A DNA stretch of 64,000 bases from a virus, in IMG/VR virus record IMGVR_UViG_3300036770_008700, positions 1-64,000 of that record. The stretch is one strand, 5' to 3'. The translations under genes were made by a program, and so were the position numbers. This document shows positions 2,383 to 48,743 of the stretch, piece by piece (the first letter of the stretch is position 1; each line of letters starts with the position of its first letter). The notes beneath the pieces were generated by a model. That model did not search any database. It was given only the letters and a program-made list of their open reading frames with translations, and was not told the DNA's origin.

Positions 2383-2388
2383 AGGATT

Positions 2389-4263
2389 ATGACAAACTCA
2401 ATCAAGCCTTCAAGGTTCGTAGGTCTTCACGCTCATAGCACAGTTGGGAGCATTGGAGATGCTATCGGCCTTCCACAAGAGCATATCGATTATGCTATTT
2501 CCAACAACATGGATGCTCTTGCTCTTACCGATCACGGTTCTATGGCTGGAGTATCTCACCAGCAAATCCATGCCAAGAAGCTCAAAGATAAGGGAGTTAA
2601 GTTTAAGTCTATTCCCGGCGTTGAAGCTTATTTCATCGATTCACTTTCTGAGTGGTCAAAGCTTGTTAAGATGCAAAAGGCCAACAAGGTTTTGGCCAAA
2701 GCTCTTGCTAATAATGAAACAATTGGAAATGAGCTAGCTGATACAGAAGCTGACATGGATGCCAAGCATGGCAAAGAAGTTTTGGAAGAGGAAGAAGGTG
2801 GAACTGTTGTAGAAATCGAAGCAGAATCAAAGAACAACAAGTTTTCTGATCCAATTGCTCAACGTAACCATATTGTTCTTCTGCCCAAGAACAATGCTGG
2901 GCTCAAGAGCCTTTTCCAAATGGTATCGGAAAGTTATATCGATGGCTTTTACCGTTATCCTCGCATTGACTTTGATATCCTAAAGCGTCATGCCAAGGGA
3001 AACATCATCGCTAGCTCTGCATGTATTGGTGGCCGTCTTGCAAAGGTTGTGTTTGATAATCAAGATCCTTCTCTTCAATGGAGAACCTGGGAAGTAACAA
3101 ACTATAATTTTGAAAAGATTCAATCTGAGCTTAAGAGCATTACAGATCGATTTGTTGATGCTCTTGGTGCACCAGAGAACTATTACATTGAACTCCAGAT
3201 GAATCGTCTTGTTCCTCAACATTTGGTAAATTATCATCTTATTGAGCTATCAAAGCGAACAGGACTTAAGCTTGTTGTTACCGTAGATTCTCACTATTCT
3301 AATCCTAATCACTGGAAGGAGCGTGAGGTTTACAAGGCTATGGCTTGGGCTTCAAAGACCAAGGGAACCATTGATCCCAACACTCTTCCTCAAACTGTTG
3401 AAGAGCTTAAGTGTGAGCTTTATCCAAAGAATGCCGATCAGCTTTGGAATACCTACCTTGAGCAAAAGGCGGTATATCCAGAACTTTATAACGACGATCA
3501 ACTTATTTGTGATGCTATTGAACGCACCCATGATATTGCTCACCAGCTTATTGGTGACGTTTCTGTTGACCGTTCTGTGAAGCTTCCCGGCATTGGTCGT
3601 CTTATTGAAAAGAATGCCCTAGAAAAGCTTCTAGAGGCTTCTACGGGCATGTCTGAGGATGATGTAGCATTCAAGCAGTTGGTGCAGCTAGCAATTAATG
3701 GTTTGCGTAACGTTGGACGCAATCATGATGATGTTTACATTAAGCGATTGAAGTATGAACTTGATACCATCAAGCATCTTCGCTTTGCAAAATACTTTCT
3801 CACATATCACAAGATTATGGATATTGCTGGAAAGGAAATGCTTATCGGGAATGGTCGTGGTTCTGCTGCTGGCTCGCTGCTATCATATGTTTTGAATATT
3901 ACGCAGGTTGATCCTATTCGTTTTGGTTTGCTATTCGAACGTTTCTTGGTTAAGTCTAAAAAGTGTTTGCTCCCCACTACTTATGTATTGGCACATGATC
4001 ATCGTCTAGTAACACTTAAAGATGTAAAAATGTTAAAAGATTTGGAAGTTGGGGATATGGTGTATACACATACAAAAGCATGGAAACCAGTTGTAAGCAA
4101 AGAAGAAACACTGCATAAAACACTTGTAGAATTTGAACTAGAAGACGGTACTATGCTTACAAGCAGCCCCAACCATCTTTGGATTGTTATTCGTGAAGGA
4201 AAAGAAATAGAGGTTAGGGCCGATGAAATCAGAGAAACCGACGAGTTTATTAAAATGCTGTAA
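2389..4263 (+). CDS. dnaE: DNA polymerase III alpha, N-terminal part fused to split-intein N-half
   Basis: 624 residues. Residues 1-525 are the N-extein: a PHP domain ([24 protein letters not shown], with further His/Asp metal ligands) followed by the start of the C-family polymerase domain ([16 protein letters not shown], then LLFERFL). Residues 526-624 are an intein N-half starting with Cys1 (CLLPTTYVL), with the GDMVYTH region and the block-B motif TSSPNHLW. The frame ends in a stop after 99 intein residues, so this is a complete gene, not a frameshift. The partner half is on the gene starting at 5130. The extein breaks directly before the catalytic PDIDSDF motif, so neither half should polymerise alone. 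Confidence 0.9.
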
Positions 4264-5258
4264 AAACTGTGGAAATGAGTTTGAGCTAATAATTCCAGAA
4301 AAAAATGGGAGTGGTAGCTCAAACTCACTTAGACGAGTTTTTTGCAATGACAAATGCAAAAATCAGTTTGGTAGGAATAAAGAAGAAGGAAAAGTAAATC
4401 GTATTTGCAAAATATGTGACAAAACTTTTCTTAGCTATCCTTCACAGAAACGCTCTTACTGTTCTAGAAAATGTCAAAATGAAAGTAAAAAAGTAGCACA
4501 CGTTGAAAGAAAGTGTGAATACTGTAATAGTATTTTTGAAGGCAAGCCAAGTGATTTGAATGTGTATTTCTGCTCTAGAGAATGCTTCCATAAAGCCGGA
4601 AGAGAAGTAAAAACTTGCATTACCTGTAAAAAACAGTTTGAAATAAAAAAATCTGATAATCATATTCAACGATGCAGTCGTCAATGTCAGTTCGTTGATC
4701 AGTCGAACGGTAAAATCAAAATACACCTAAATGGCAGAACAGGTTATCGCATTGATTTAGGAATGAAAGATTATTTCAAAAGTGCTCTAGAGGCAGATTA
4801 TGCAAGGTTCCTTGAATATTTTGGGATTCAATACATTTATGAAGGTAAAACGTTCCTAACAGCTATAGGGGCATATACTCCCGACTTCTTCTTGCCAGAA
4901 CTAAACTTATTTGTTGAACTCAAAGGTGTAGAGGATAATGGAAAACCATTCGAAAAAATGATGACAAAGAATCTTTTAAAGCACCAATCGGTACTAGAAC
5001 AAGCCAGCAAAATAATAACAATAACACAAAAAGAGTTTATAGCTGGAATAAAAGCTGCTAATCTATGGTCAACTATTCCCAACCTAGAACAAAGAAACTA
5101 TAAAAAAACAAAAGGATTGGTTGTCACATATGAAGATCAAACAAATCAACAAAGTAAACCTAGCAACTCCAATCAAGCTGGTTGATATTGGAGTTGAAGG
5201 CGATCACACGTTTTTTGTAAGCGACAAACCAAACGGAAACTTTTTCCTTACACATAAC
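3964..5258 (+). mobile_element. Split intein with nested endonuclease gene, inserted in dnaE
   Basis: The insert runs from intein Cys1 codon (3964) to the Asn codon before the +1 Ser (5259). It consists of IntN (99 residues plus stop), a separate endonuclease gene in another frame overlapping both intein halves, and IntC (about 43 residues ending HN). This is the fractured-gene arrangement known from environmental phage sequences: split inteins around a freestanding homing endonuclease. Lysine codons switch from mostly AAG in the exteins to mostly AAA in the insert. Confidence 0.88.
4223..5185 (+). CDS. Homing endonuclease nested in the split intein (zinc-finger array + PD-(D/E)XK)
   Basis: 320 residues. 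Four or five Cys4-type zinc fingers occupy residues about 12-155 ([32 protein letters not shown], each followed by a CSRxC-type pair). A nuclease domain follows: [15 protein letters not shown], then [18 protein letters not shown], the E...PD...ExK signature of Vsr-like PD-(D/E)XK enzymes such as the I-Bth0305I family. AGAGG lies upstream of the ATG. It overlaps IntN by 41 nt and the IntC gene by 56 nt (from the ATG at 5130). It presumably cleaves intein-free dnaE near the PDIDSDF codons (inference). Confidence 0.85.
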
Positions 5259-7370
5259 TCATTTCCCGACATTGATTCAGATTTTTCTGATCGTGATCGT
5301 GCTGTAAAACTTCTTATTGAGTTCTTCGGCAGCGAGAACGTTATTCCTGTAACCAACTTTGCACAGCTTCAACTTCGTTCTCTTATTAAGGATGTTGCAC
5401 GTTTGCACAATCTTCCATTTGAGACAATCAACGCTGCAACAGGAAAGATTGAGAAAGAAGTGTTGGATGTTGCCAAGCAAGTAGAAGGTTTTGACCGTGG
5501 CACATGGGTATTGACCTTTGAAGCTGCTATGAATGATAGTCCCACATTCCAAGAGCTTATGGAAACTTATCCAGAGTTTCAAACCACCATCAAGGTGCTA
5601 TTCAAGCAAATGCGTGGATTGTCTCGTCACGCTGGAGGAGTGATTATTACCGAGAACAGTCGTGAAGGTATGCCGCTTATCAAAGCTGGTGGTGAGCTAC
5701 AAACACCATGGCCAGAAGGTGTTAACTTTCGTCATCTTGAAGAGTTTGGTTTGCTGAAGTTCGATATTCTTGGACTTGGTACACTCCGTATGTTCGAACA
5801 ATGTGTGCGACGTATTCTGCAAAAGCAGGGCAACAAGCATCCAACTTTCAAACAAATCAAGCAATGGTTTTGGGATAACTTGCATCCAGACAACAATCTT
5901 ATGGATGATAAGAAGGTATACGAGCACGTTTTCTGGAATGGAAACTACACAGGAATCTTTCAGTTTATTAACGACAAAACACAAAACTTCATGCGTCACA
6001 TGAAGCCGAAGTCTGTAACAGATATTGCTGTAGCTACATCTATCTTTCGTCCTGGTCCTCTATCTCTCAAGGTAGATCAACGATTCTTGAATAACCGTTC
6101 TAATCCAGATTCGGTTGTATACAAGCATCCTCTTCTCAAAGAAGTGTTTGCTGAAACTTCTGGATTGCTTGTGTTTCAAGAGCAGCTTCAAATGATTTAT
6201 CACAAGCTCGCTGGTGTTCCTCTAGAGGACACAGACGGTATTCGTAAGGCATTTACCAAGAAGGAAATCAACAATAAGGAAAAGGCACAAGCAGAGCGTA
6301 ACAAGCTACGTCAAAGCTTTATTGATGCTTGCAACAAGGCTAATGGAATTGATGCCAAGGATTGTGGTGACATCTTTGATGAAATGGAAAAGCTTGTCGC
6401 TTATTCGTTCAATAAGTCTCACGCTGTATGCTACGCAATTACTACATGGCAATGCGCTTGGTTTCTAACCTATTATCCAGACGAATGGATTGCTACATAT
6501 ATTGATTATTGTGCAATTTCTAAGGGCAAGGTAACAGGCAAGGAAGATCCAAAGGCTATTGCGATTAAAGAAGCTAAGGCTCTTGGTTATGAGCTAACCA
6601 AGCCAGACATTAACGTGTCTGAATATGAGATTATCTCACATCCTGTTTTTGACAAGACTCTTGTGCCAAGCTTTAGCTCACTCAAGCATGTTGGTAAGAC
6701 TGCGGTTTCTGAGATTCAACAGTTTCGTCCATATAATTCTGTAAATGATTTGCTTGTTAATCCAGATGGTTCATGGAGACACAGCAAGTTTAACAAGAGT
6801 GCGTTGTCAGCGTTGATTAAGCTTGAGGCACTAGGTTCCATGAATATTGTTGGTGAAGGTAAGCTGTTTAAGAACTACAAGCAGGTTCATGCTGTTCTTG
6901 TAGAACGATATGACGAGTTTAAGCGTATTACCTCACGTAAGAAGAATAATGATATTGCTCAACCTCTTGCTGCTGCTATTGCAGAGGTTCAAGGCATGGA
7001 AGACTGGACCAAGGCAGAGAAGATGGAGTTTACCAAGGAGCTTGCTGGGTCTGTTGATTTTGATTTGCTTCTTTCCAAGGAAGCTCGTGAGAAGCTTGAT
7101 GAACTTGGTTTTGAATCTATTGATAACTGGAGTGAGAAGGGAAATTACTGGGCCATCGTGGCTTCTGCTGGTCTAGCTAAAACCAAAACAGGCAAGACTT
7201 ATCTTAAGCTTCGGTTGTTTGCTGAAGCTAACAAGGAAGTAACTTGCTTTATTTGGGGTTGGAGAGGTGAAGTAAACCTTGCGCAAAACGATGTTATTGT
7301 TGGATTGTTTGATAAAAGTGATTTTGGATTTTCTTGTTATCAGAACAAGATTTACAAGATTTCAAGCTAA
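5130..7370 (+). CDS. dnaE: DNA polymerase III alpha, split-intein C-half fused to C-terminal part
   Basis: 746 residues from ATG 5130 (a TTG nine bases upstream is possible). Residues 1-43 are Int[16 protein letters not shown] is block F and NFFLTHN is block G, ending in Asn with Ser as +1. The C-extein begins SFPDIDSDF, containing two catalytic aspartates, and continues through the polymerase palm/fingers (MRGLSRHAGGVII, ATSIFRPGPLSL, GLLVFQEQLQMI, AYSFNKSHAVCYA), a helix-hairpin-helix-like region, and an OB-like C-terminus (TCFIWGWRGEV). After trans-splicing the enzyme would be about 1,228 residues, normal for DnaE. Confidence 0.9.
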   Translation: MKIKQINKVNLATPIKLVDIGVEGDHTFFVSDKPNGNFFLTHNSFPDIDSDFSDRDRAVKLLIEFFGSENVIPVTNFAQLQLRSLIKDVARLHNLPFETINAATGKIEKEVLDVAKQVEGFDRGTWVLTFEAAMNDSPTFQELMETYPEFQTTIKVLFKQMRGLSRHAGGVIITENSREGMPLIKAGGELQTPWPEGVNFRHLEEFGLLKFDILGLGTLRMFEQCVRRILQKQGNKHPTFKQIKQWFWDNLHPDNNLMDDKKVYEHVFWNGNYTGIFQFINDKTQNFMRHMKPKSVTDIAVATSIFRPGPLSLKVDQRFLNNRSNPDSVVYKHPLLKEVFAETSGLLVFQEQLQMIYHKLAGVPLEDTDGIRKAFTKKEINNKEKAQAERNKLRQSFIDACNKANGIDAKDCGDIFDEMEKLVAYSFNKSHAVCYAITTWQCAWFLTYYPDEWIATYIDYCAISKGKVTGKEDPKAIAIKEAKALGYELTKPDINVSEYEIISHPVFDKTLVPSFSSLKHVGKTAVSEIQQFRPYNSVNDLLVNPDGSWRHSKFNKSALSALIKLEALGSMNIVGEGKLFKNYKQVHAVLVERYDEFKRITSRKKNNDIAQPLAAAIAEVQGMEDWTKAEKMEFTKELAGSVDFDLLLSKEAREKLDELGFESIDNWSEKGNYWAIVASAGLAKTKTGKTYLKLRLFAEANKEVTCFIWGWRGEVNLAQNDVIVGLFDKSDFGFSCYQNKIYKISS

Positions 7371-7424: not shown

Positions 7425-8762
7425 ATGACCAACCTAATTTCCATTCTTTACGAAATAACCCGATATGAAAGAGAGACAGGAGAAAGTCTTCCTAGCTCGC
7501 AAGAACAAATCATTAAATACGAGGAACAAGGTGGATACTTTATCCATTTTTCTAATGTTCCAAGAATAGGATTATACATTGTAAACAAATACAATACCCC
7601 TATTGGATTTTATGCCTATCCTTTAAATAGAAAGAAGATGGCTGACTTTGCTGTAGACAGACCTTATGCCATTATCTTCAAACCTAAGCCAGAAGCAAAA
7701 ATTTTAGATACTAAGAAGTATGGTGAAGGTGACTACAAGGCAGATGTTGATGAACTTGTTGATATGGGCTATTCTTTAGATGATATCAATGAGGCAGCAA
7801 GAAATGCCAGAAGGCCAAGACCTGCTGGAAAAATCTGGAATGTTACAAGAGTTTTGAGTGGTTCTGATAAAAAAACTGATGATGATTCAGCAACAAGAGG
7901 TGGAGGACCAACAGGTAAATGGTCAATGCTTCTTAAAAAACTTGGTTACGATGGAGTTAATGACGATTGTTTTAGCATCATCCATCCATCCGAGCCTTGT
8001 CAAGCTGTGTTTTTTGATACAGGCAAGCTTGATTTAATCAAAATACTTGACATGAAGGGCACAGGCATAAAATATAAGAGTGACTTATTTGAACCCGAAA
8101 ACCAAGACTTAAAACAAGCAGCTAATTCAAAAACTTCACCGAAACGTTTAGCAATGCTTGCAAAAAGTAAAAACAATCAGGTTCGTAGAAATGTTGCTAA
8201 GAATCCAAACACTTCACCAGAAACTTTGAGAGATTTAGCAAACCCAGAAATAGAAAGCAATGAAGATGTTCGTGAGTATGTATATTCAAATCCAAACTGT
8301 CCACCAGATATTTTAACAGCAGTTGCTGAAAGTTCAGATGGTAGATTAGATACTATTATTGCAGAAAACCCAAACACTCCACCAGAAACGTTAAGAAAGC
8401 TTGCAACAAAAGGACGAGGTGATAATTTTTGGCTTCGTAGAAGTGTTGTTGGTAATGAAAACTGTCCACCAGATATTTTAAGTGACCTTGCAAAAAATGA
8501 CCCCGAATTATTCGTTCGTGTTGTAGCTATATCCAATCCAAGTATTCCAGTAGAAGCATTGGAATTCCTAGCAAATGACACAGAAAAGCAAATTCGTATG
8601 AATGTTGCAAAGAACAATAAAACTCCAAGGGATATTTTGATTAAACTTAGCAAAGACCCATCACATTTCGTTTCAGATGCTGCTGAAAGAACACTTAAAA
8701 ATCTTGGTATTACCGAAGCTTTGATCATGCAAAAAGTATTTAACAAGCTGCTTGGGTATTAA
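7425..8762 (+). CDS. ART-like domain protein with LRV repeats
   Basis: 445 residues. The N-terminus (MTNLISILYE) is a variant of the shared tag. Residues about 35-225 carry a conserved phage module: YFIHFSNVPRIGLY, TPIGFYAYPL, YAIIFKPKP, then GYDGVNDD and IHPSEPCQAVFF; the pattern is reminiscent of ADP-ribosyltransferase-like domains, but this is by eye. Residues about 230-435 are six or seven leucine-rich-variant repeats (NPNTSPETLRDLA, NPNCPPDILTAVA and so on), an alpha/3-10 solenoid for protein binding. A diverged full-length paralogue lies at 42503-43918. Confidence 0.75.
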   Translation: MTNLISILYEITRYERETGESLPSSQEQIIKYEEQGGYFIHFSNVPRIGLYIVNKYNTPIGFYAYPLNRKKMADFAVDRPYAIIFKPKPEAKILDTKKYGEGDYKADVDELVDMGYSLDDINEAARNARRPRPAGKIWNVTRVLSGSDKKTDDDSATRGGGPTGKWSMLLKKLGYDGVNDDCFSIIHPSEPCQAVFFDTGKLDLIKILDMKGTGIKYKSDLFEPENQDLKQAANSKTSPKRLAMLAKSKNNQVRRNVAKNPNTSPETLRDLANPEIESNEDVREYVYSNPNCPPDILTAVAESSDGRLDTIIAENPNTPPETLRKLATKGRGDNFWLRRSVVGNENCPPDILSDLAKNDPELFVRVVAISNPSIPVEALEFLANDTEKQIRMNVAKNNKTPRDILIKLSKDPSHFVSDAAERTLKNLGITEALIMQKVFNKLLGY

Positions 8763-35969: not shown

Positions 35970-36092
35970 ATGCATGACAAACTTACTCTAGAAAAATGTT
36001 GCTCTGTGTTCGGTGACTCAAAATGGGCACCCCTCGCTGGCTTCCTAGCGGTTACAGAAGGTCTGCAAACCCTACACCACAGTCATCACTAA
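35970..36092 (+). pseudogene. N-terminal fragment of a Dps-like gene
   Basis: 40 residues: FGDSKWAPLAGFLAVTEGLQ and TLHHSHH match FGPNEYAPLAAFLAATEALQ and MIAHSHH of the intact protein at 36736. The frame stops right after HSHH, at the site where the minus-strand HNH gene ends. The codons have diverged considerably, so it is not a recent copy. It keeps an AAAAGGA site and ATG, so a short peptide could still be made. Confidence 0.65.
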
Positions 36093-36691
36093 CCTTCCCA
36101 TCTATTGTTCTTTTTCAAGTTATCAAACGCTGGAAGAGGTTGTAAATTTTCAAGAGCCCAGCACGCTTTAAACTCTGATGAATCTGTCGAATCGTAATTA
36201 AACCAAGAATCTGGTCTTATGTGGTCGATATGCCAATAAGTTCCATGATTTTCCCACGACATTTCTGGCGTAAATTGTTTTTCTAAATGTTCTTTTAACT
36301 GCTCTAAAGTGTAACCTACAAGATCAATCCAGCTTGTCCTATTTTTCGTTAAAAATCTAGTTTTAAGAGCATGGTTCATTCGTCTGCTCATGTTTTCTCT
36401 TAAACGAAACTGTGGATCAGTTGCTCTTCTTATTCTATTTTGTTCGTTCAGTTGTTCTTTTAATCTTTCACGACGTTCACGTTGCTTTTGAACGTAATGA
36501 TCTCTTCGTTTATGTCTGATTTCTTTCTTTTTCTCACGCAGTTTAACTTTGTTTTTTTGACAATATTCACGGCATGGCTCTTTTCTGCAAATTTTGCATA
36601 TGCTAAGATGGCCATCTTTTGATTTTTTATTTTTGTGATAATCAGTTAATGGTTTTTCAATCGAACACGAACTGCACTTTTTCAACGTCAT
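36089..36691 (-). CDS. HNH homing endonuclease
   Basis: 200 residues. An N-terminal zinc ribbon (CSSCSIEKPLTDYHKN, CKICRKEPC) and a very basic linker (KLREKKKEIRHKRRDHYVQK) lead to the HNH core: YWHIDHIRPDSWF, then WALENLQPLPAFDNLKKNN. It sits between a Dps-like gene fragment and the intact Dps-like gene, so that gene is its probable target. TATAGATAGG upstream of ATG may be a late-type promoter. Confidence 0.88.
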   Translation of the reverse strand: MTLKKCSSCSIEKPLTDYHKNKKSKDGHLSICKICRKEPCREYCQKNKVKLREKKKEIRHKRRDHYVQKQRERRERLKEQLNEQNRIRRATDPQFRLRENMSRRMNHALKTRFLTKNRTSWIDLVGYTLEQLKEHLEKQFTPEMSWENHGTYWHIDHIRPDSWFNYDSTDSSEFKACWALENLQPLPAFDNLKKNNRWEG

Positions 36692-38690: not shown

Positions 38691-39716
38691 TTACTCAATA
38701 CTGTTTGTGGGCAAAGTTGTAGAAACATTTTCTTTCTCTTCCTGATCTAATAAAATCCAACCCTTATAAGCCTTTCTTTTACCTTTAATCAAATCATGCA
38801 TTGATGATTGAGACAAACCATGTTCTTTGCAGAATTGGTTTAGGTTTGAAATAGGTCCAAAAACTTTATTTGTTGGGGATTGAATTCTCACATCATATGT
38901 ATTGCTTATTTTTGAGATTCTGTCAGTTTTTATTGAATCTTTTGTGATATGCTTATTTTCCAAAAGTCTCCAACCTTGGCAAATTTTAGCATAGCCATTA
39001 ATCATTGATCTAAAGTTTTTATCATTGATTCCATGCTCTCTGCAAAATGCTCTAAGATTAGTGATAGGACCATACTCTTTATTATTCGGGCACACAACCC
39101 GCACATCGTATACTTTTTGTAATTTTTGAGCTAGTAAATCTTTTGCTGGAATGTATGGAATGTCTTTATTTATTGCTAATCTCCAACCTTTACAAGTTTT
39201 TACTTTACCCTTTCTTAACTGCAAAAGATGCGAATAAAATATGTTGTTTTCTATGCAAAATTTACGTAAGTTAACCACCGACACAAATTTACCATTTGGA
39301 TCAATCAAATCTACTGATAGTTTTTTCTTGGAATTCGACAACTTTTGTTTAGTTTGCTCTGAGAGTTTTAAACCCAAATTAGAATAAGCAGTTGGATTAA
39401 TATTGTAACATTCATTTTGATTGTCATAATATTGATCAAGCCAATATTGCTCTCTCTGAACGATGTTGTCAACAGTGCAATGTTCTAAAACACGCATCTC
39501 AAAACTATCAAAATACTTCAAGTATTCTTTTTGCAGGTAAGGGCTTGCTCGTCCTTTTCTTAAATTTGTATTATGCACCCCAAGTCTTTTGGTAATCGAC
39601 AAACAACTTCCTATGTAAATTTTATTGTTTCTGACATTGCGTATTTGGTATATGGCTGGTGTTTTTGGAGTGTATTCACCATTCAATATAATTGGCCCTA
39701 GTAATCTTCTTGTCAT
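38691..39716 (-). CDS. GIY-YIG homing endonuclease with three DNA-binding repeats
   Basis: 341 residues. The catalytic domain (about 18-110) has AIYQIRNVRNNKIYIGSC (GIY-YIG motifs), KRLGVHNTNLRKG with catalytic Arg region, and EQYWLDQY with the metal-binding Glu. Then come three homologous repeats of about 60 residues, each with an N-terminal strand, a helix-turn-helix-like NLRxFCxEHG segment and a xGWRLL ending (about 135-180, 205-255, 275-325). A promoter-like TATAAC lies 12 nt before ATG. Confidence 0.9.
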   Translation of the reverse strand: MTRRLLGPIILNGEYTPKTPAIYQIRNVRNNKIYIGSCLSITKRLGVHNTNLRKGRASPYLQKEYLKYFDSFEMRVLEHCTVDNIVQREQYWLDQYYDNQNECYNINPTAYSNLGLKLSEQTKQKLSNSKKKLSVDLIDPNGKFVSVVNLRKFCIENNIFYSHLLQLRKGKVKTCKGWRLAINKDIPYIPAKDLLAQKLQKVYDVRVVCPNNKEYGPITNLRAFCREHGINDKNFRSMINGYAKICQGWRLLENKHITKDSIKTDRISKISNTYDVRIQSPTNKVFGPISNLNQFCKEHGLSQSSMHDLIKGKRKAYKGWILLDQEEKENVSTTLPTNSIE

Positions 39717-42098: not shown

Positions 42099-42530
42099 TT
42101 ATTTTTTCGCTTCTAAAAGCTTTGTAAATCCTTCAATAACAGCGTCACTCCAAAATTGATACTCATAATCCTCTAACTTATTCTCTTTTAACCACTTCCT
42201 CGTTGCCGTAGCCTTGGCAATAACTTTTCTGTCAGTCAACTTGTCGGCACGCTTGACTTCCACAATAACCTTTTTACCGGTTTTATACAGAACCAAGAAG
42301 TCAGGAGTATAGTTTCTATACCTGCCAGCTATTGCATACCGGATAATAATGCTCTCATATTCGTAAGAAAGCACATCTGGATTCTGATCTAGATAGAGTG
42401 CAACCGTGTATTCCCAACCTGATCTATATTTTATTGGTGTTGGACATTTAGGAGAATAATGTGTCCCAGTTATGTAATGCTTTTTACGCTTGCGTCGCTT
42501 TTTTACAGTTTTCTTTTTATCAGTTTCCAC
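42099..42530 (-). CDS. TnsA-like PD-(D/E)XK nuclease, possibly head-completion type
   Basis: 143 residues from GTG 42530 with AAAAGG upstream, overlapping the previous gene by 28 nt. A basic tail (KKRRKRKKHY) precedes the nuclease: YRSGWEYTVALYLDQNPDVL (Glu), YTPDFLVLYKTGKKVIVEVK (PD...ExK). This RSxWE...PDF...EVK pattern resembles T4 gp4-like head-completion nucleases and TnsA. Given the virion genes to the right, a head/neck role is more likely than restriction (inference). Confidence 0.68.
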   Translation of the reverse strand: METDKKKTVKKRRKRKKHYITGTHYSPKCPTPIKYRSGWEYTVALYLDQNPDVLSYEYESIIIRYAIAGRYRNYTPDFLVLYKTGKKVIVEVKRADKLTDRKVIAKATATRKWLKENKLEDYEYQFWSDAVIEGFTKLLEAKK

Positions 42531-43918
42531 AATACCTTTTCCATTACCAATGCTTGAGTCATTTCTTGTAACCCAGATAAACGCTGAAAAGCAGAACGAC
42601 GAACAAAGTTGTCTGAATCTTTTGCCAGTTTCTCTAAAATATCCCGAGGAACTTTGGGATTGTCTGCAACAGCTTCCCGTGTTAAAGGGTCTGTAGAATC
42701 ATCAGCAAGATACCTTAAAACTTCCTGTGGTGTGTTTCGATTTCCTGCAACCGCTATTCGAACCACCGGTTGCTTCGCTAACTCAGCTAAAACATCGCCT
42801 GGAGTGTCTTCATTTCGTGCAACAGCAGATCGTACAGTCTCTGCTGGGTCTTTTGAAAAAGTTGTTAAAACCTCTGGTGTAACGTTTAAATGGTTAACCG
42901 CCAGAATACGAATAGTTGTATTCTCAAGGTCGTCTAACTTTGCTAGACTTGCCAAAACTTTTGGCGTTGCTGAGTTGTTGTTTACAACAGCCATTCGAAC
43001 ATTAAAATCTCTATCGTTAGCAAGAGCCACTAATAAATCTTCTGGAGATTTCTTATTCTTTGCCAGAAGCACACGAACACTATCTGTGTCAAATAAAAGC
43101 GACTTCAAAACTTCTGGTGGAGCGTTTTCATTCCCTGCAACAACTTTTCTAATCTTCCAATCAGAATCCTGTGCAAGACTCGCTAACAACTTCGGTGAAG
43201 AAGTTTTTGCAAGCGTAATCTTCCTTTGATAATCTCTTTCCTCTGTGTCAAATAATTGATCAACATCTTTTATGTTGCTACTTTTAAGTTCAATCACTTT
43301 TACTAAATCAAGCTTGCTTGTATCAAAAAATACTGCTTGACAAGGCTCTGAATCATGAATAATAGAAAGGCAATCGTCGTTAACTCCATCATAGCCAAGC
43401 TTCTTGAAAAGAATTGACCATTTACCTGTTGCGCCGCCACCTCTTGCCACTGAATCATCATCAGTTTTTTTGTCAGAACCACTCAAAAGTCTTGTAACAT
43501 TCCAGATTTTTCCAGCAGGAGTTTTTCTTTTAGCTTTTGAAGCTGCTTTCTCAATCACTTCTAACGAGTTGCCCATGTCAACAAGCTTGGCAATGTCTGC
43601 TTTGTAGTCACTCTCACTATACTTCTTAATCTCTAGAATATTAGCTTCTGGTTTAGGCTTAAAGATAATAGCATAAGGTCTATCAATCGCAAAACTTTCC
43701 ATCTTATCTCTATCTAAAGGATATGCGTAAAATCCAATAGGAGTGTTGTACTTGTTAACAATGTATAACCCTATTCTTGGAACATTAGAAAAGTGAATGA
43801 AATATCCACCTTGTTCCTCGTATTTAACAAGCTCTTCTTGCCAACGAGGAAAATTTTCTCCTATCTCTTCTTTGTATCTGGTTATTTCGGATAAACGAAT
43901 GGTTTTTCTCTTGGTCAT
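42503..43918 (-). CDS. ART-like domain protein with LRV repeats, second copy
   Basis: 471 residues. Paralogue of 7425-8762: GGYFIHFSNVPRIGLYIVNK, TPIGFYAYPL, YAIIFKPKPEA, GYDGVNDD, SEPCQAVFFD are shared, the first being identical over 20 residues. The C-terminal half has eight or nine LRV repeats (NENAPPEVLKSLL, NRNTPQEVLRYLA and so on), two or so more than the other copy. The tag is degenerate (TIRLSEITRYKEE). It may bind several protein partners through the solenoid. Confidence 0.75.
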   Translation of the reverse strand: MTKRKTIRLSEITRYKEEIGENFPRWQEELVKYEEQGGYFIHFSNVPRIGLYIVNKYNTPIGFYAYPLDRDKMESFAIDRPYAIIFKPKPEANILEIKKYSESDYKADIAKLVDMGNSLEVIEKAASKAKRKTPAGKIWNVTRLLSGSDKKTDDDSVARGGGATGKWSILFKKLGYDGVNDDCLSIIHDSEPCQAVFFDTSKLDLVKVIELKSSNIKDVDQLFDTEERDYQRKITLAKTSSPKLLASLAQDSDWKIRKVVAGNENAPPEVLKSLLFDTDSVRVLLAKNKKSPEDLLVALANDRDFNVRMAVVNNNSATPKVLASLAKLDDLENTTIRILAVNHLNVTPEVLTTFSKDPAETVRSAVARNEDTPGDVLAELAKQPVVRIAVAGNRNTPQEVLRYLADDSTDPLTREAVADNPKVPRDILEKLAKDSDNFVRRSAFQRLSGLQEMTQALVMEKVLWKLIKRKL

Positions 43919-44015: not shown

Positions 44016-44999
44016 TTACAGTATATTCATCTCTTCTAACGTTTGTTTTGTTAGCAGTTTATAAGCATCGATCCCATTTGCTCGACAATACTCTTCGGCT
44101 GCTAACTGCTTTTGCTTAACTTTTTCAGATTCTGAATAAGCTGCTGGCTTGATTTCCCAAAGTTCTTTCCGTCCATCGGTATATTCAATCAGAAAATCTG
44201 GAATATATCGTCGAGCATGTTCTCTGTTTCCTTCGTTTAGTTTGTAGCAGATCACGAACGGTTCATATGTAAACGTTCTAACTGTCAGTTCTTTATCCAA
44301 CCATTCAACTACTGCTTTTTCCCAAGATGACCGATAAAAGACTTCGTTGCCCAATTTTTCAGAAAAAACGTGTCCATTTTTGTGGAAGTTTTTCCCATAG
44401 GCTTGACGCTTTCCTGCAACCATTTCTGAAGAAACAATCTCTGACATTTTTTGTCTAGTCTCTAGTGAATGGTTTTTGCCGTACATCGGATTTCTCTCTC
44501 CACTGAAACAAGCTGTATCTTTATGATGTTTTGAGATTTTTTCTTTTGCTTCCTTTGTATGATGTTTACCAAACATAGGATGTTTCGTTTTGTCTTTCAG
44601 TCTCTCAGTCATAGAAGCACTAAGTTTTCCTTTTACTTCATCGTCCATTCGTGCATTATTAGGAATCAAACCTTCTCTAATCGCCGCACCACGACAAGGT
44701 TTGCTACAAAAATGATGTACGAACTTAGCGATCTGATTTTTCCATTGCAAAACCAACTTTTTGCAATAAAAACATTCAATTTCTGCTTTTCTGGGAGAGG
44801 GCTTATAACTTTTTTCCATAACTCTTCGATGTGCATATGCACATTCAAGTTTACAATAATGATTTTTGTTCTTTAGTTGCTTGTATTCCAGCTTTTTTGG
44901 AGTAAAAACAGTGTGGCAAAAATCACACTCGAAAACAACAATTCGTCGCTTTTGTTTTGGTTTACCAACAACGGCTTCCATCTTGTCTTCTATTATCAT
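44016..44999 (-). CDS. Homing endonuclease: zinc ribbons, NUMOD3 repeats and TnsA-like nuclease
   Basis: 327 residues with AGAGGTGAG upstream. Two zinc-ribbon modules (CDFCHTVFTPKK, CFYCKKLV, with CKLEC and CSKPC partners), two NUMOD3-like motifs (HPMFGKHHTKEAKEKIS, NPMYGKNHSLETRQKMS), then a PD-(D/E)XK domain: FYRSSWEKAVVEWLDKEL, RRYIPDFLIEYTDGRKELWE. The nuclease resembles the phage protein at 42099. Probably a free-standing late-region homing enzyme. Confidence 0.85.
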   Translation of the reverse strand: MIIEDKMEAVVGKPKQKRRIVVFECDFCHTVFTPKKLEYKQLKNKNHYCKLECAYAHRRVMEKSYKPSPRKAEIECFYCKKLVLQWKNQIAKFVHHFCSKPCRGAAIREGLIPNNARMDDEVKGKLSASMTERLKDKTKHPMFGKHHTKEAKEKISKHHKDTACFSGERNPMYGKNHSLETRQKMSEIVSSEMVAGKRQAYGKNFHKNGHVFSEKLGNEVFYRSSWEKAVVEWLDKELTVRTFTYEPFVICYKLNEGNREHARRYIPDFLIEYTDGRKELWEIKPAAYSESEKVKQKQLAAEEYCRANGIDAYKLLTKQTLEEMNIL

Positions 45000-47493: not shown

Positions 47494-47832
47494 TTAAATA
47501 CTCTCAATGATATTTTCTAGTTTGTTTTCTTTCAATAACGCATGAAGCCTTGGAGCTAATATCGTTGCAACAAGTTCAGAAAGATTTGCACCCTCCTTCA
47601 TCTGCCTAGACACTTCCTCAATCCCAGAGTTATCAAGCATTGTGTGAAGAATCTCATGCATCAATGTTTCTTCTCTTACATCCTTTGCCATCGATCCATT
47701 TACAACAATCTTGCTTTGATAATAGTCTGTGAAACCACAAACTTCTGAGGCATCTCTGCCTGTCATAGCTTCAATCTGTTCTTCAGACCATTGCTGAATG
47801 GAATAACAACGTGTTCCAACTTTCAAGTTCAT
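47494..47832 (-). CDS. HExxH metalloprotease-like protein
   Basis: 112 residues. ETLMHEILHTMLDNSG contains the zinc-binding HEILH helix; VVNGSMAKDVREETLMH precedes it in the way seen in small phage metallopeptidases. A possible third ligand is E in GIEEVSRQ. It overlaps the upstream HNH gene by 4 nt. A role in virion maturation or host-protein cleavage is possible. Confidence 0.7.
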   Translation of the reverse strand: MNLKVGTRCYSIQQWSEEQIEAMTGRDASEVCGFTDYYQSKIVVNGSMAKDVREETLMHEILHTMLDNSGIEEVSRQMKEGANLSELVATILAPRLHALLKENKLENIIESI

Positions 47833-48743
47833 TGTTTCCTCTTTTTATTCCCATATGTTTCTGTTTTCTTGTGACATTCAATACACAAAGTTCTACCATT
47901 GTTTATATCCCATAACTCTTTACAGGCTTCAGCTTGTTCTGTTGTGGCTATATTGTTTTCGTTCATGATATCAGAAAATCTTTTAATATGATCTGCGTTT
48001 ATATCTCTTGATGCATCTCCGCATTGAACGCAAATAAAGTTATCTCTTTTAAACACAGCCAATCGCCACTCTTTGTATGCTTGCAACTGTCTTACGATTG
48101 CATGTATTACAGAAACGCCTTGACCGTTTTTCCAGTTGGGATTTCTTGAACCAACATTGCTTCTTATACCTAGTTTAAACTGCTCTTTTTGCGTAAAGGA
48201 TATTTTTCTTCCAAGATCTGCTATTTCTGGATCATCTTTTGCAGTTTTGCCTTTTGTCCACGGCTCATAACCTTGCGGCATCTCTGGGTGCTTGCCGTAA
48301 AAATGATGGTTTTCTCCAGATTTTGCACATGACCTTGAACAAAATCTAGAAGTTTGCCAATGACTAGACCCAACCTTATACTCTTTCCCACAAGCTTCAC
48401 AAGTTTTTGTTGACGGAACTTTTCTACATTCCCATGAACAATAGTTTTCTTTGTTTACAGCAGAAGCTCTACGCTCAAACTCTTTACCACACCGATTACA
48501 GTTGATCTTTATAGAGTTCTTTCTGGATAATCCAGCAACTTTTCCATGACACTTGTGACCGCAATATTCTTGTTTTTTATGCGAAGGAATATATTTCTCT
48601 CCGCAACCAACACAAGACCTTTCAACTTTCCACGTTTCTGCTATCGCAACAAAATAGCACTTTTTGGAGCAATAAACTTTGTCTGGTTTGCGATGTTGAA
48701 AAGGAGTATTACAAGACTTGCAAACGTAATCATATATCTTCAT
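47829..48743 (-). CDS. HNH homing endonuclease with zinc-ribbon array
   Basis: 304 residues. Four zinc-ribbon modules (CKSCNTPFQHRK, CVGCGEKYIPSH, CNRCGKEFERRA, CEACGKEYKVG, each with a matching C-x3-C partner), then NUMOD3-like sequence (NHHFYGKHPE, DLGRKISFTQK), then HNH: FKRDNFICVQCGDA, DINADHIKRFSDI, NNGRTLCIECHKK. CACTATATATC about 30 nt upstream of ATG may be a late promoter. It lies between structural genes. Confidence 0.88.
   Translation of the reverse strand: MKIYDYVCKSCNTPFQHRKPDKVYCSKKCYFVAIAETWKVERSCVGCGEKYIPSHKKQEYCGHKCHGKVAGLSRKNSIKINCNRCGKEFERRASAVNKENYCSWECRKVPSTKTCEACGKEYKVGSSHWQTSRFCSRSCAKSGENHHFYGKHPEMPQGYEPWTKGKTAKDDPEIADLGRKISFTQKEQFKLGIRSNVGSRNPNWKNGQGVSVIHAIVRQLQAYKEWRLAVFKRDNFICVQCGDASRDINADHIKRFSDIMNENNIATTEQAEACKELWDINNGRTLCIECHKKTETYGNKKRKQ

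Follow-up and report, generated by a model that had tools for sequence, protein, structure and literature searches.

How a phage could obtain an intact replicative DNA polymerase from a gene that lies in separate pieces is the question raised by a locus in the virus record IMGVR_UViG_3300036770_008700. We analysed positions 1 to 64,000 of this record (hereafter the window); the whole record is 122,895 bp long and is itself a fragment. The DnaE-type polymerase of the window is encoded in two open reading frames (ORFs), and a third ORF, coding for a putative endonuclease, overlaps both. We compared the locus with 28 related contigs (L-numbers; metagenomic contigs except where a phage is named), which were mapped against the intact DnaE of L002 (1,227 residues) as a reference. 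These comparisons indicate that the locus is very probably a mobile fractured-gene element lodged in a phage dnaE gene, in which trans-splicing would restore the polymerase while the endonuclease would spread the element.

The dnaE gene is interrupted directly ahead of its catalytic motif

The first-pass annotation of this DNA had proposed that dnaE is divided just before the PDIDSDF motif, with a 99-residue N-terminal intein fragment (IntN) closing the first gene, a 43-residue C-terminal fragment (IntC) ending in His-Asn before a Ser, and an endonuclease gene in another frame overlapping both halves. All of these elements, with their coordinates and lengths, were recovered by the ORFs and by the Pfam and TIGRFAM matches of the two halves. 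The features of the locus are the following.

2389-4263 (+): DnaE N-half ORF, frame 1, 624 residues, consisting of the N-extein, IntN and a stop
2389-3963 (+): DnaE N-extein, 525 residues, PHP domain and first part of the palm, C-terminal LVKSKK
3964-4260 (+): IntN, 99 residues, CLLPTTYVL...FIKML with Cys1 first; stop codon at 4261-4263
4210-4219 (+): GAGGTTAGGG, candidate ribosome-binding sequence for the endonuclease, ahead of the ATG at 4223
4223-5185 (+): free-standing endonuclease gene, frame 2, 320 residues, with its own start
5110-5116 (+): AAAAGGA, candidate ribosome-binding sequence for the IntC-polymerase ORF
5121 (TTG) or 5130 (ATG) to 7370 (+): IntC-polymerase ORF, frame 3
5130-5258 (+): IntC, 43 residues, MKIKQ...FFLTHN, ending Leu-Thr-His-Asn; the +1 Ser is at 5259-5261
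5259-7370 (+): DnaE C-extein, 703 residues plus stop, S-FPDIDSDF (two catalytic Asp), fingers and HHH domains
3964-5258 (+): the whole putative mobile element, 1,295 bp, missing without trace from the empty alleles L002, L003 and L004

The N-extein matches PF02811 (PHP, 1.2e-26) and the N part of PF07733 (DNA_pol3_alpha, 1.2e-26), while the C-extein matches PF17657 (finger, 1.2e-30), the rest of PF07733 (3.9e-20) and PF14579 (HHH_6, 6.7e-08). The insertion point falls between Lys525 and Ser526, and PHROG models 7513 and 12219 end and begin near it. IntN and the endonuclease gene overlap by 41 bp, the endonuclease gene and IntC by 56 bp when counted from the ATG, and this start of the IntC ORF (ATG-MKIK or MQIR) is kept in relatives. 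The same three-ORF arrangement was found in L001 and L005, which come from other metagenomes. Its frame order is also the same in the diverged lineages L016/L020/L024, L019/L072, L040 and L041, and apart from L020 they all retain both overlaps. As the layout recurs in independent contigs and diverged lineages, we rejected a sequencing error or an assembly artefact as its source. In L020 itself, a frameshift near the 3' end of the endonuclease gene removes the IntC overlap present in L016 and L024, which may reflect either decay or a sequencing error.

The DNA pattern of the insertion site was found in further viral contigs (L015, L016, L019, L020 and L001/L005). A search for the pattern HN/[STC]-x-PDxDxDF across 84,980 prokaryote species returned a sole match, by chance, with Trp at +1. 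Two candidates from cultured phages were discarded: the DnaE of Gordonia phage Sienna is annotated in pieces and its ORFs lack intein ends, and the polymerases of PB1-like and Bas100 phages, considered as DnaE split at the window site, are single ORFs.

The flanking fragments have the hallmarks of a class 1 split intein

IntN matches PF14890 (5.2e-07) and TIGR01445 (0.015), and IntC matches TIGR01443 at 20.5 bits, above the cut-off of 15.6. When a profile built by joining IntN to IntC in six element copies was searched against solved structures (PDB), the first match was the gp41-1 intein (6qaz/6riz, E=1.1e-9) with both halves aligned, followed by DnaE, PolC and NrdJ-1 inteins. Cys1, the block B His71 (in a Ser-Pro-Asn-His motif) and the block G pair His141-Asn142 are invariant in the six element copies, and the +1 Ser is invariant in all element copies, at an intein identity across lineages of 60-63%. 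By Cys1, the block B His, the terminal His-Asn and the +1 Ser, the window intein is assigned from its sequence to the class 1 split inteins. Because the profile matches gp41-1 and because homologous phages lack exactly this stretch, the arrangement is not a product of chance. With gp41-1 as its best PDB match, the window intein is related in sequence to a member of the ultra-fast group of split inteins; splicing rates are not predictable from sequence (PMC11923092).

The endonuclease resembles T7 endonuclease I

The endonuclease has four CxxC zinc-finger-like units followed by a nuclease domain, in which the catalytic residues E190, D221, E232 and K234 are invariant in six copies; the L019 protein is without the fourth CxxC unit. 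It matches PF05367 at 0.0017, and the profile of its family matches T7 endonuclease I (1m0d, E=1.2e-5). Its structural model gave weak fold matches, to Bax1 and, at E=0.087, to I-Bth0305I, the representative of the Vsr-like family. As its sequence, with an E, D, ExK motif, favours T7 endonuclease I and the fold comparison is weak, we call the enzyme a T7-endonuclease-I-like PD-(D/E)xK endonuclease and not one of the Vsr-like type usually cited; it may have a deeper Vsr-like kinship. Among cultured phages only one distant relative was matched, in Vibrio phage vB_VnaS-L3.

Occupied and empty alleles point to a recent transfer of the element

In L002 and L003, dnaE is uninterrupted: window positions 3963 and 5259 adjoin there and exactly 1,295 bp are absent. 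These polymerases are 91-95% identical to that of the window (C half). L001 and L005, in turn, are occupied alleles nearly identical to each other. The window element shares 98.4-99.7% identity with that of L001, against 84-86% for the surrounding polymerase, and so must have moved recently. The synonymous difference between the two alleles amounts to 0.010-0.016 for IntN and the endonuclease and to 0.41-0.48 for the exteins. Just 5' of the element, a stretch of 263 bp is 95-97% identical to L001 and 78-85% identical to the empty L002, and such a one-sided upstream tract is what co-conversion during homing would leave. At a greater distance, the C-extein of the window is closer to L041 (68% identity) than to L016 (59%), whereas its endonuclease is closer to L016 (67%) than to L041 (54%). 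The host and element trees thus disagree, and the element therefore moves between phages independently. The population signature of homing is present, with occupied and empty alleles and an element far more alike than its surroundings.

The ratio of nonsynonymous to synonymous substitution rates (dN/dS) between the window and L001-L003 is 0.09-0.125 for the N-extein and 0.05-0.065 for the C-extein, so that both halves stay within 0.05-0.125 in occupied-occupied and occupied-empty comparisons alike. Between the window and L024, dN/dS is 0.21 for IntN and 0.15 for IntC, values that are rough owing to high synonymous divergence. As dN/dS is low in both, neither the polymerase nor the intein looks dead. 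Together with the splicing residues and the gp41-1 match, the empty alleles and the recent move give good support to the earlier proposal that the locus is of the fractured-gene type with a split intein.

The same dnaE is broken at further sites into three or at least five pieces

The dnaE gene is uninterrupted in most of the related contigs. It is the target of at least five further inteins besides that of the window, which are listed below with a slash at the break.

Site 1, FNRL/[G/C]AQHL: split intein with a GIY-YIG endonuclease with NUMOD motifs; L020, L025
Site 2, KKK/SFPDIDSDF: split intein, the window element; window, L001, L005, L016, L019/L072, L020, L024, L040, L041
Site 2b, PDID/SD: contiguous mini-intein; L040
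Site 3, RG/S[AG][AG]GSL: split intein; L061, L062, L074, L040
Site 4, IKS/CGRHAGG: split intein; L040
Site 5, FN[KA]/SHA: split intein with Ser1; L074 and L040 (where the end of the contig leaves IntN alone)
Site 6, RPGPL/S: contiguous intein with an HNH domain; L076:1508-2205

Sites 1 and 2 are both occupied in L020, where the polymerase lies in three pieces in the order PartA-IntN1, GIY-YIG ORF, IntC1-PartB-IntN2, endonuclease ORF, IntC2-PartC. Its near relatives L025 and L024 carry site 1 alone and site 2 alone, respectively, which argues that the two elements arrived separately. L020 and L025 share 99.7-100% identity in the site-1 element and 93-95% in exteins B and C; L020 and L024 share 100% in IntN2 and IntC2 and 91% in the C-extein. 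L074 also has three pieces, broken at sites 3 and 5 by split inteins that have lost their endonucleases; the ORFs are divided by in-frame stops and new starts, with 74 and 105 bp between them. When joined, the L074 exteins restore the intact L069 sequence (NARG+SAGGSLL and FNK+SHAMAY). The proportion of nonsynonymous differences (pN) in L074 is 0.12-0.22, and that of synonymous differences (pS) is saturated.

In L040 the polymerase lies in at least five pieces, and its inteins comprise four split ones and a single cis intein. The extein pieces measure 511, 34, 6+114 (around the mini-intein) and 273 residues; the C-terminal piece is missing, and the contig stops within the endonuclease of the fifth intein. 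Between the first and second pieces, which share a strand, lie 11.3 kb with about twenty ORFs, among which are, by eye, dihydrofolate reductase-like and thymidylate synthase-like genes. The site-3 halves of L040 share 44-54% identity with the neighbouring halves in L061 and L074, and its IntN5 shares 53% with that of L074; because of these identities we regard the distant halves as true partners and not as chance resemblances. L040 is a single contig, and a second contig like it was sought and not found; each of its unusual parts is matched in other contigs. Identity among the inteins within a phage is 15-30% for IntN halves (those of L040) and 31-35% for IntC halves, values that are compatible with orthogonality but do not prove it. 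Site 3 was found in three states: halves with an endonuclease between them (L061), adjacent halves without one (L074) and halves 11 kb apart (L040).

Altogether, we consider it likely from these alignments that this dnaE has been serially fractured, so that three (L020 and L074) or at least five (L040) polypeptides would have to be joined in the right order by split inteins, two to four in number and orthogonal to one another, and that site 3 traces a route from a fractured gene to scattered split genes of the cyanobacterial type.

A proposed mechanism and its alternatives

At the window locus, two polypeptides would be made, PHP-palm-IntN and IntC-palm-fingers-HHH. Association of IntN with IntC would form a Hint (intein) domain, and the exteins would be ligated with loss of the intein by the chemistry expected of a class 1 intein with Cys1, a block B His, a terminal His-Asn and a +1 Ser. 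The product would be an unscarred polymerase of 1,228 residues (...VKSKK-SFPDIDSDF), the ligated junction of which would read ...KSKKSFPDIDSDF...; the spanning peptide KSKK-SFPDIDSDF occurs in none of the unspliced ORFs. The endonuclease, made from its own overlapping ORF, would cut the element-free dnaE of co-infecting phages near the insertion site, and repair would copy the element into the cut alleles. As two to four split inteins coexist in L020, L074 and L040, an active polymerase would depend there on an equal number of successive trans-splicing reactions, with the pieces joined stepwise. Cross-reaction between two inteins would close a middle piece, which begins with IntC and ends with IntN, into a circle, and for this reason natural sets of orthogonal pairs have presumably been selected.

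The sequences show the anatomy, the conservation, the empty site, the recent transfer and the purifying selection, and from these we infer splicing and cleavage. Against this mechanism stand the structural models. The AlphaFold model of IntN alone is poor (predicted local distance difference test, pLDDT, 58), and its best fold matches, to a Hedgehog Hint domain, MchDnaB-1 and Npu DnaE IntN, are all at E>0.1; that of the endonuclease reaches an intermediate pLDDT of 68, with the weak matches given above. We treat these fold matches as secondary evidence. It could be argued that the gene functions in pieces without splicing, as a non-covalent polymerase of two subunits with the intein ends as passive tails. 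A phage ribonucleotide reductase split by a homing endonuclease does work in two pieces (Friedrich 2007, as cited in PMC10448857), which sets a precedent among phage enzymes, and purifying selection on both halves would be expected for two subunits too. The window locus is unlike such NrdA-type genes in pieces, which have an endonuclease and no splicing element, in that intact intein halves are present. Passive tails would not preserve Cys1, the block B His, the His-Asn pair and the +1 Ser, which are invariant across lineages at 60-63% intein identity, nor does the purifying selection on IntN and IntC fit them; in L040, moreover, exteins of 34 and 6 residues would need to be subunits or linkers. 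We therefore regard this explanation as quite improbable. The opposite possibility, a cis intein in which two programmed +1 frameshifts join IntN, endonuclease and IntC into one chain, draws on the frame order (IntN, +1, endonuclease, +1, IntC) being the same in all five lineages. Fixed overlaps alone suffice for constant frames, however, and each downstream ORF starts inside the upstream one. The homologous split inteins of L074 are parted by stops, gaps and new starts, and those of L040 by 11 kb, and since these halves lie apart, splitting is an established state in this polymerase family; judged by the layout of the ORFs, a cis intein in the window is accordingly very hard to credit.

The spread of the element and the state of the polymerase admit alternatives as well. 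Ordinary phage recombination might have carried the element, the endonuclease not being, or no longer being, a homing enzyme, given that the identity of the insert and of its 263 bp upstream flank could be that of any gene-conversion tract. That identity is nevertheless limited to the element plus one flank, with both exteins 14-16% diverged, the site-1 element with its GIY-YIG enzyme independently displays the same contrast between element and exteins, and the catalytic E, D, E and K are invariant in the six copies of the endonuclease, which together make recombination alone an unlikely account. A decaying polymerase, broken and replaced in its function by another one, would be in line with the single DnaE found in the 122.9-kb record, since this record is a fragment and another polymerase could be encoded elsewhere. 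With long intact frames, an intact catalytic motif, no internal stops and dN/dS as low in occupied as in empty alleles, decay has very little probability. A mobile element that leaves the polymerase to be restored by trans-splicing thus remains the preferred reading of the window locus.

Additional features of the record and its relatives

The 5' end of dnaE is itself a site of insertion in four relatives, in which it carries a T7-endonuclease-I-like homing endonuclease gene (PF05367, 1.1e-13) at the following positions.

L001:1685-2640
L005:3352-4310
L020 543-1410 (reverse strand numbering)
L025:6275-7142

In L001 this gene is preceded by a 70-bp remnant of the original dnaE start, with 98.6% identity to window positions 2388-2457. 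Beyond it, dnaE begins anew, and its 5' end has been strongly recoded, a change that would remove the endonuclease's own target. L020 and L025 share an extra T that places the dnaE ATG out of frame, so that the readable frame starts downstream, without the first PHP motif.

A second fractured gene was found in the same record outside the window, a recA in two ORFs at about 106871-109500 (L080). Pfam places RecA on both halves and Intein_splicing on the second. The split is atypical, with an IntN of 16 residues (CAHPDTFIEYRCISKQ) and an IntC of about 149 residues, and the 301-residue ORF between the halves has a zinc finger and, by eye, a motif resembling Vsr-like enzymes.

Within the window, at least four more endonuclease-like genes, two of which lie between structural genes, were noted at 36089-36691, 38691-39716, 44016-44999 and 47829-48743 (all -); the types among them are endonuclease-VII-like, GIY-YIG/NUMOD-like, zinc-finger with a nuclease-like C terminus, and HNH. 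Eight window ORFs share an N-terminal leader like MKLYPILFE, with the following starts.

Plus strand: 1582, 7425, 8795, 9655, 11568, 37230
Minus strand: 11133, 11546

These leaders resemble those (I/L-x-E) that target T4 internal proteins to the capsid and are cleaved off, which makes the ORFs candidates for virion-packed proteins. Two window ORFs, at 7425-8762 (+, 445 residues) and 42503-43918 (-, 471 residues), are paralogues that both combine a conserved N-terminal module (YFIHFSNVPRIGLY...) with short degenerate repeats arranged in a row (NPNTPPETLRKLA). The 7425-8762 paralogue had no PHROG match.

Comparison with known systems

Fractured phage genes, with a split intein and a free-standing endonuclease gene between the halves, were reportedly described by Dassa et al. 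in 2009, and a Vsr-like (EDxHD) endonuclease is said to occur in about half of these loci without being obligatory. The window locus is like them in that a DNA-synthesis enzyme is broken by a split intein, with an endonuclease between the halves and in a phage setting. It differs in its T7-endonuclease-I-like enzyme with zinc-finger units and in its host, a DnaE at the PDIDSDF site. To our knowledge, the two- to four-fold fracturing of the window's relatives was not among the 2009 cases. The fractured uvsW of S16-like Salmonella phages (L012) has the same three overlapping ORFs, N-IntN, endonuclease and IntC-C; unlike in the window, the host gene is a helicase and the endonuclease belongs to another subfamily (TnsA-like Pfam match). 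This uvsW, an example from cultured phages (Salmonella phage vB_SenM-AKM_NP4 and other S16-like phages), is annotated just as helicase pieces and a hypothetical protein.

Like gp41-1, the window intein is split near the endonuclease position, has a block B SxxH and shares the +1 Ser; it differs in its host protein and in its fragments of 99+43 residues. The cyanobacterial split DnaE intein (Npu, Ssp) also breaks DnaE, and its distant halves recall site 3 of L040. It is inserted before CFNKSH and, unlike the window intein, has a +1 Cys and no endonuclease. The insertion sites differ too, that of the window lying before SFPDIDSDF (reference residue 525/526) and the cyanobacterial one at about 917. 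Site 5 of L074 and L040 (FNK/SHA) is three residues from the cyanobacterial site, yet distinct. The replicative polymerase PolB of jumbo phage MIJ3 is likewise encoded by two ORFs that carry the halves of a split intein and have an endonuclease ORF between them (PMC6892783). Unlike the window DnaE, it is a B-family polymerase with an HNH endonuclease and one break (PMC6892783).

The window locus alone is thus of a known kind, the fractured gene, and is a clean case of it, with occupied and empty alleles, a recent move and a new pairing of a split intein with a T7-endonuclease-I-like homing enzyme. The serially fractured polymerase is without precedent found: in the literature searched, which covered neither subscription journals nor Dassa 2009, no natural protein broken by two or more split inteins was found. 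A replicative polymerase is about the least expected enzyme to be assembled from fragments, and the three stages of site 3, all in the same gene, may be intermediate steps on the way from a fractured gene to split genes that lie far apart. A counterpart exists in an engineered three-segment tandem trans-splicing system, in which two orthogonal split inteins supply the IntC and the IntN that flank the middle segment (PMC12707363), a layout shared by L020, L074 and L040. That system was built by design while L020, L074 and L040 are natural, and orthogonal split intein sets are wanted for multi-piece protein assembly.

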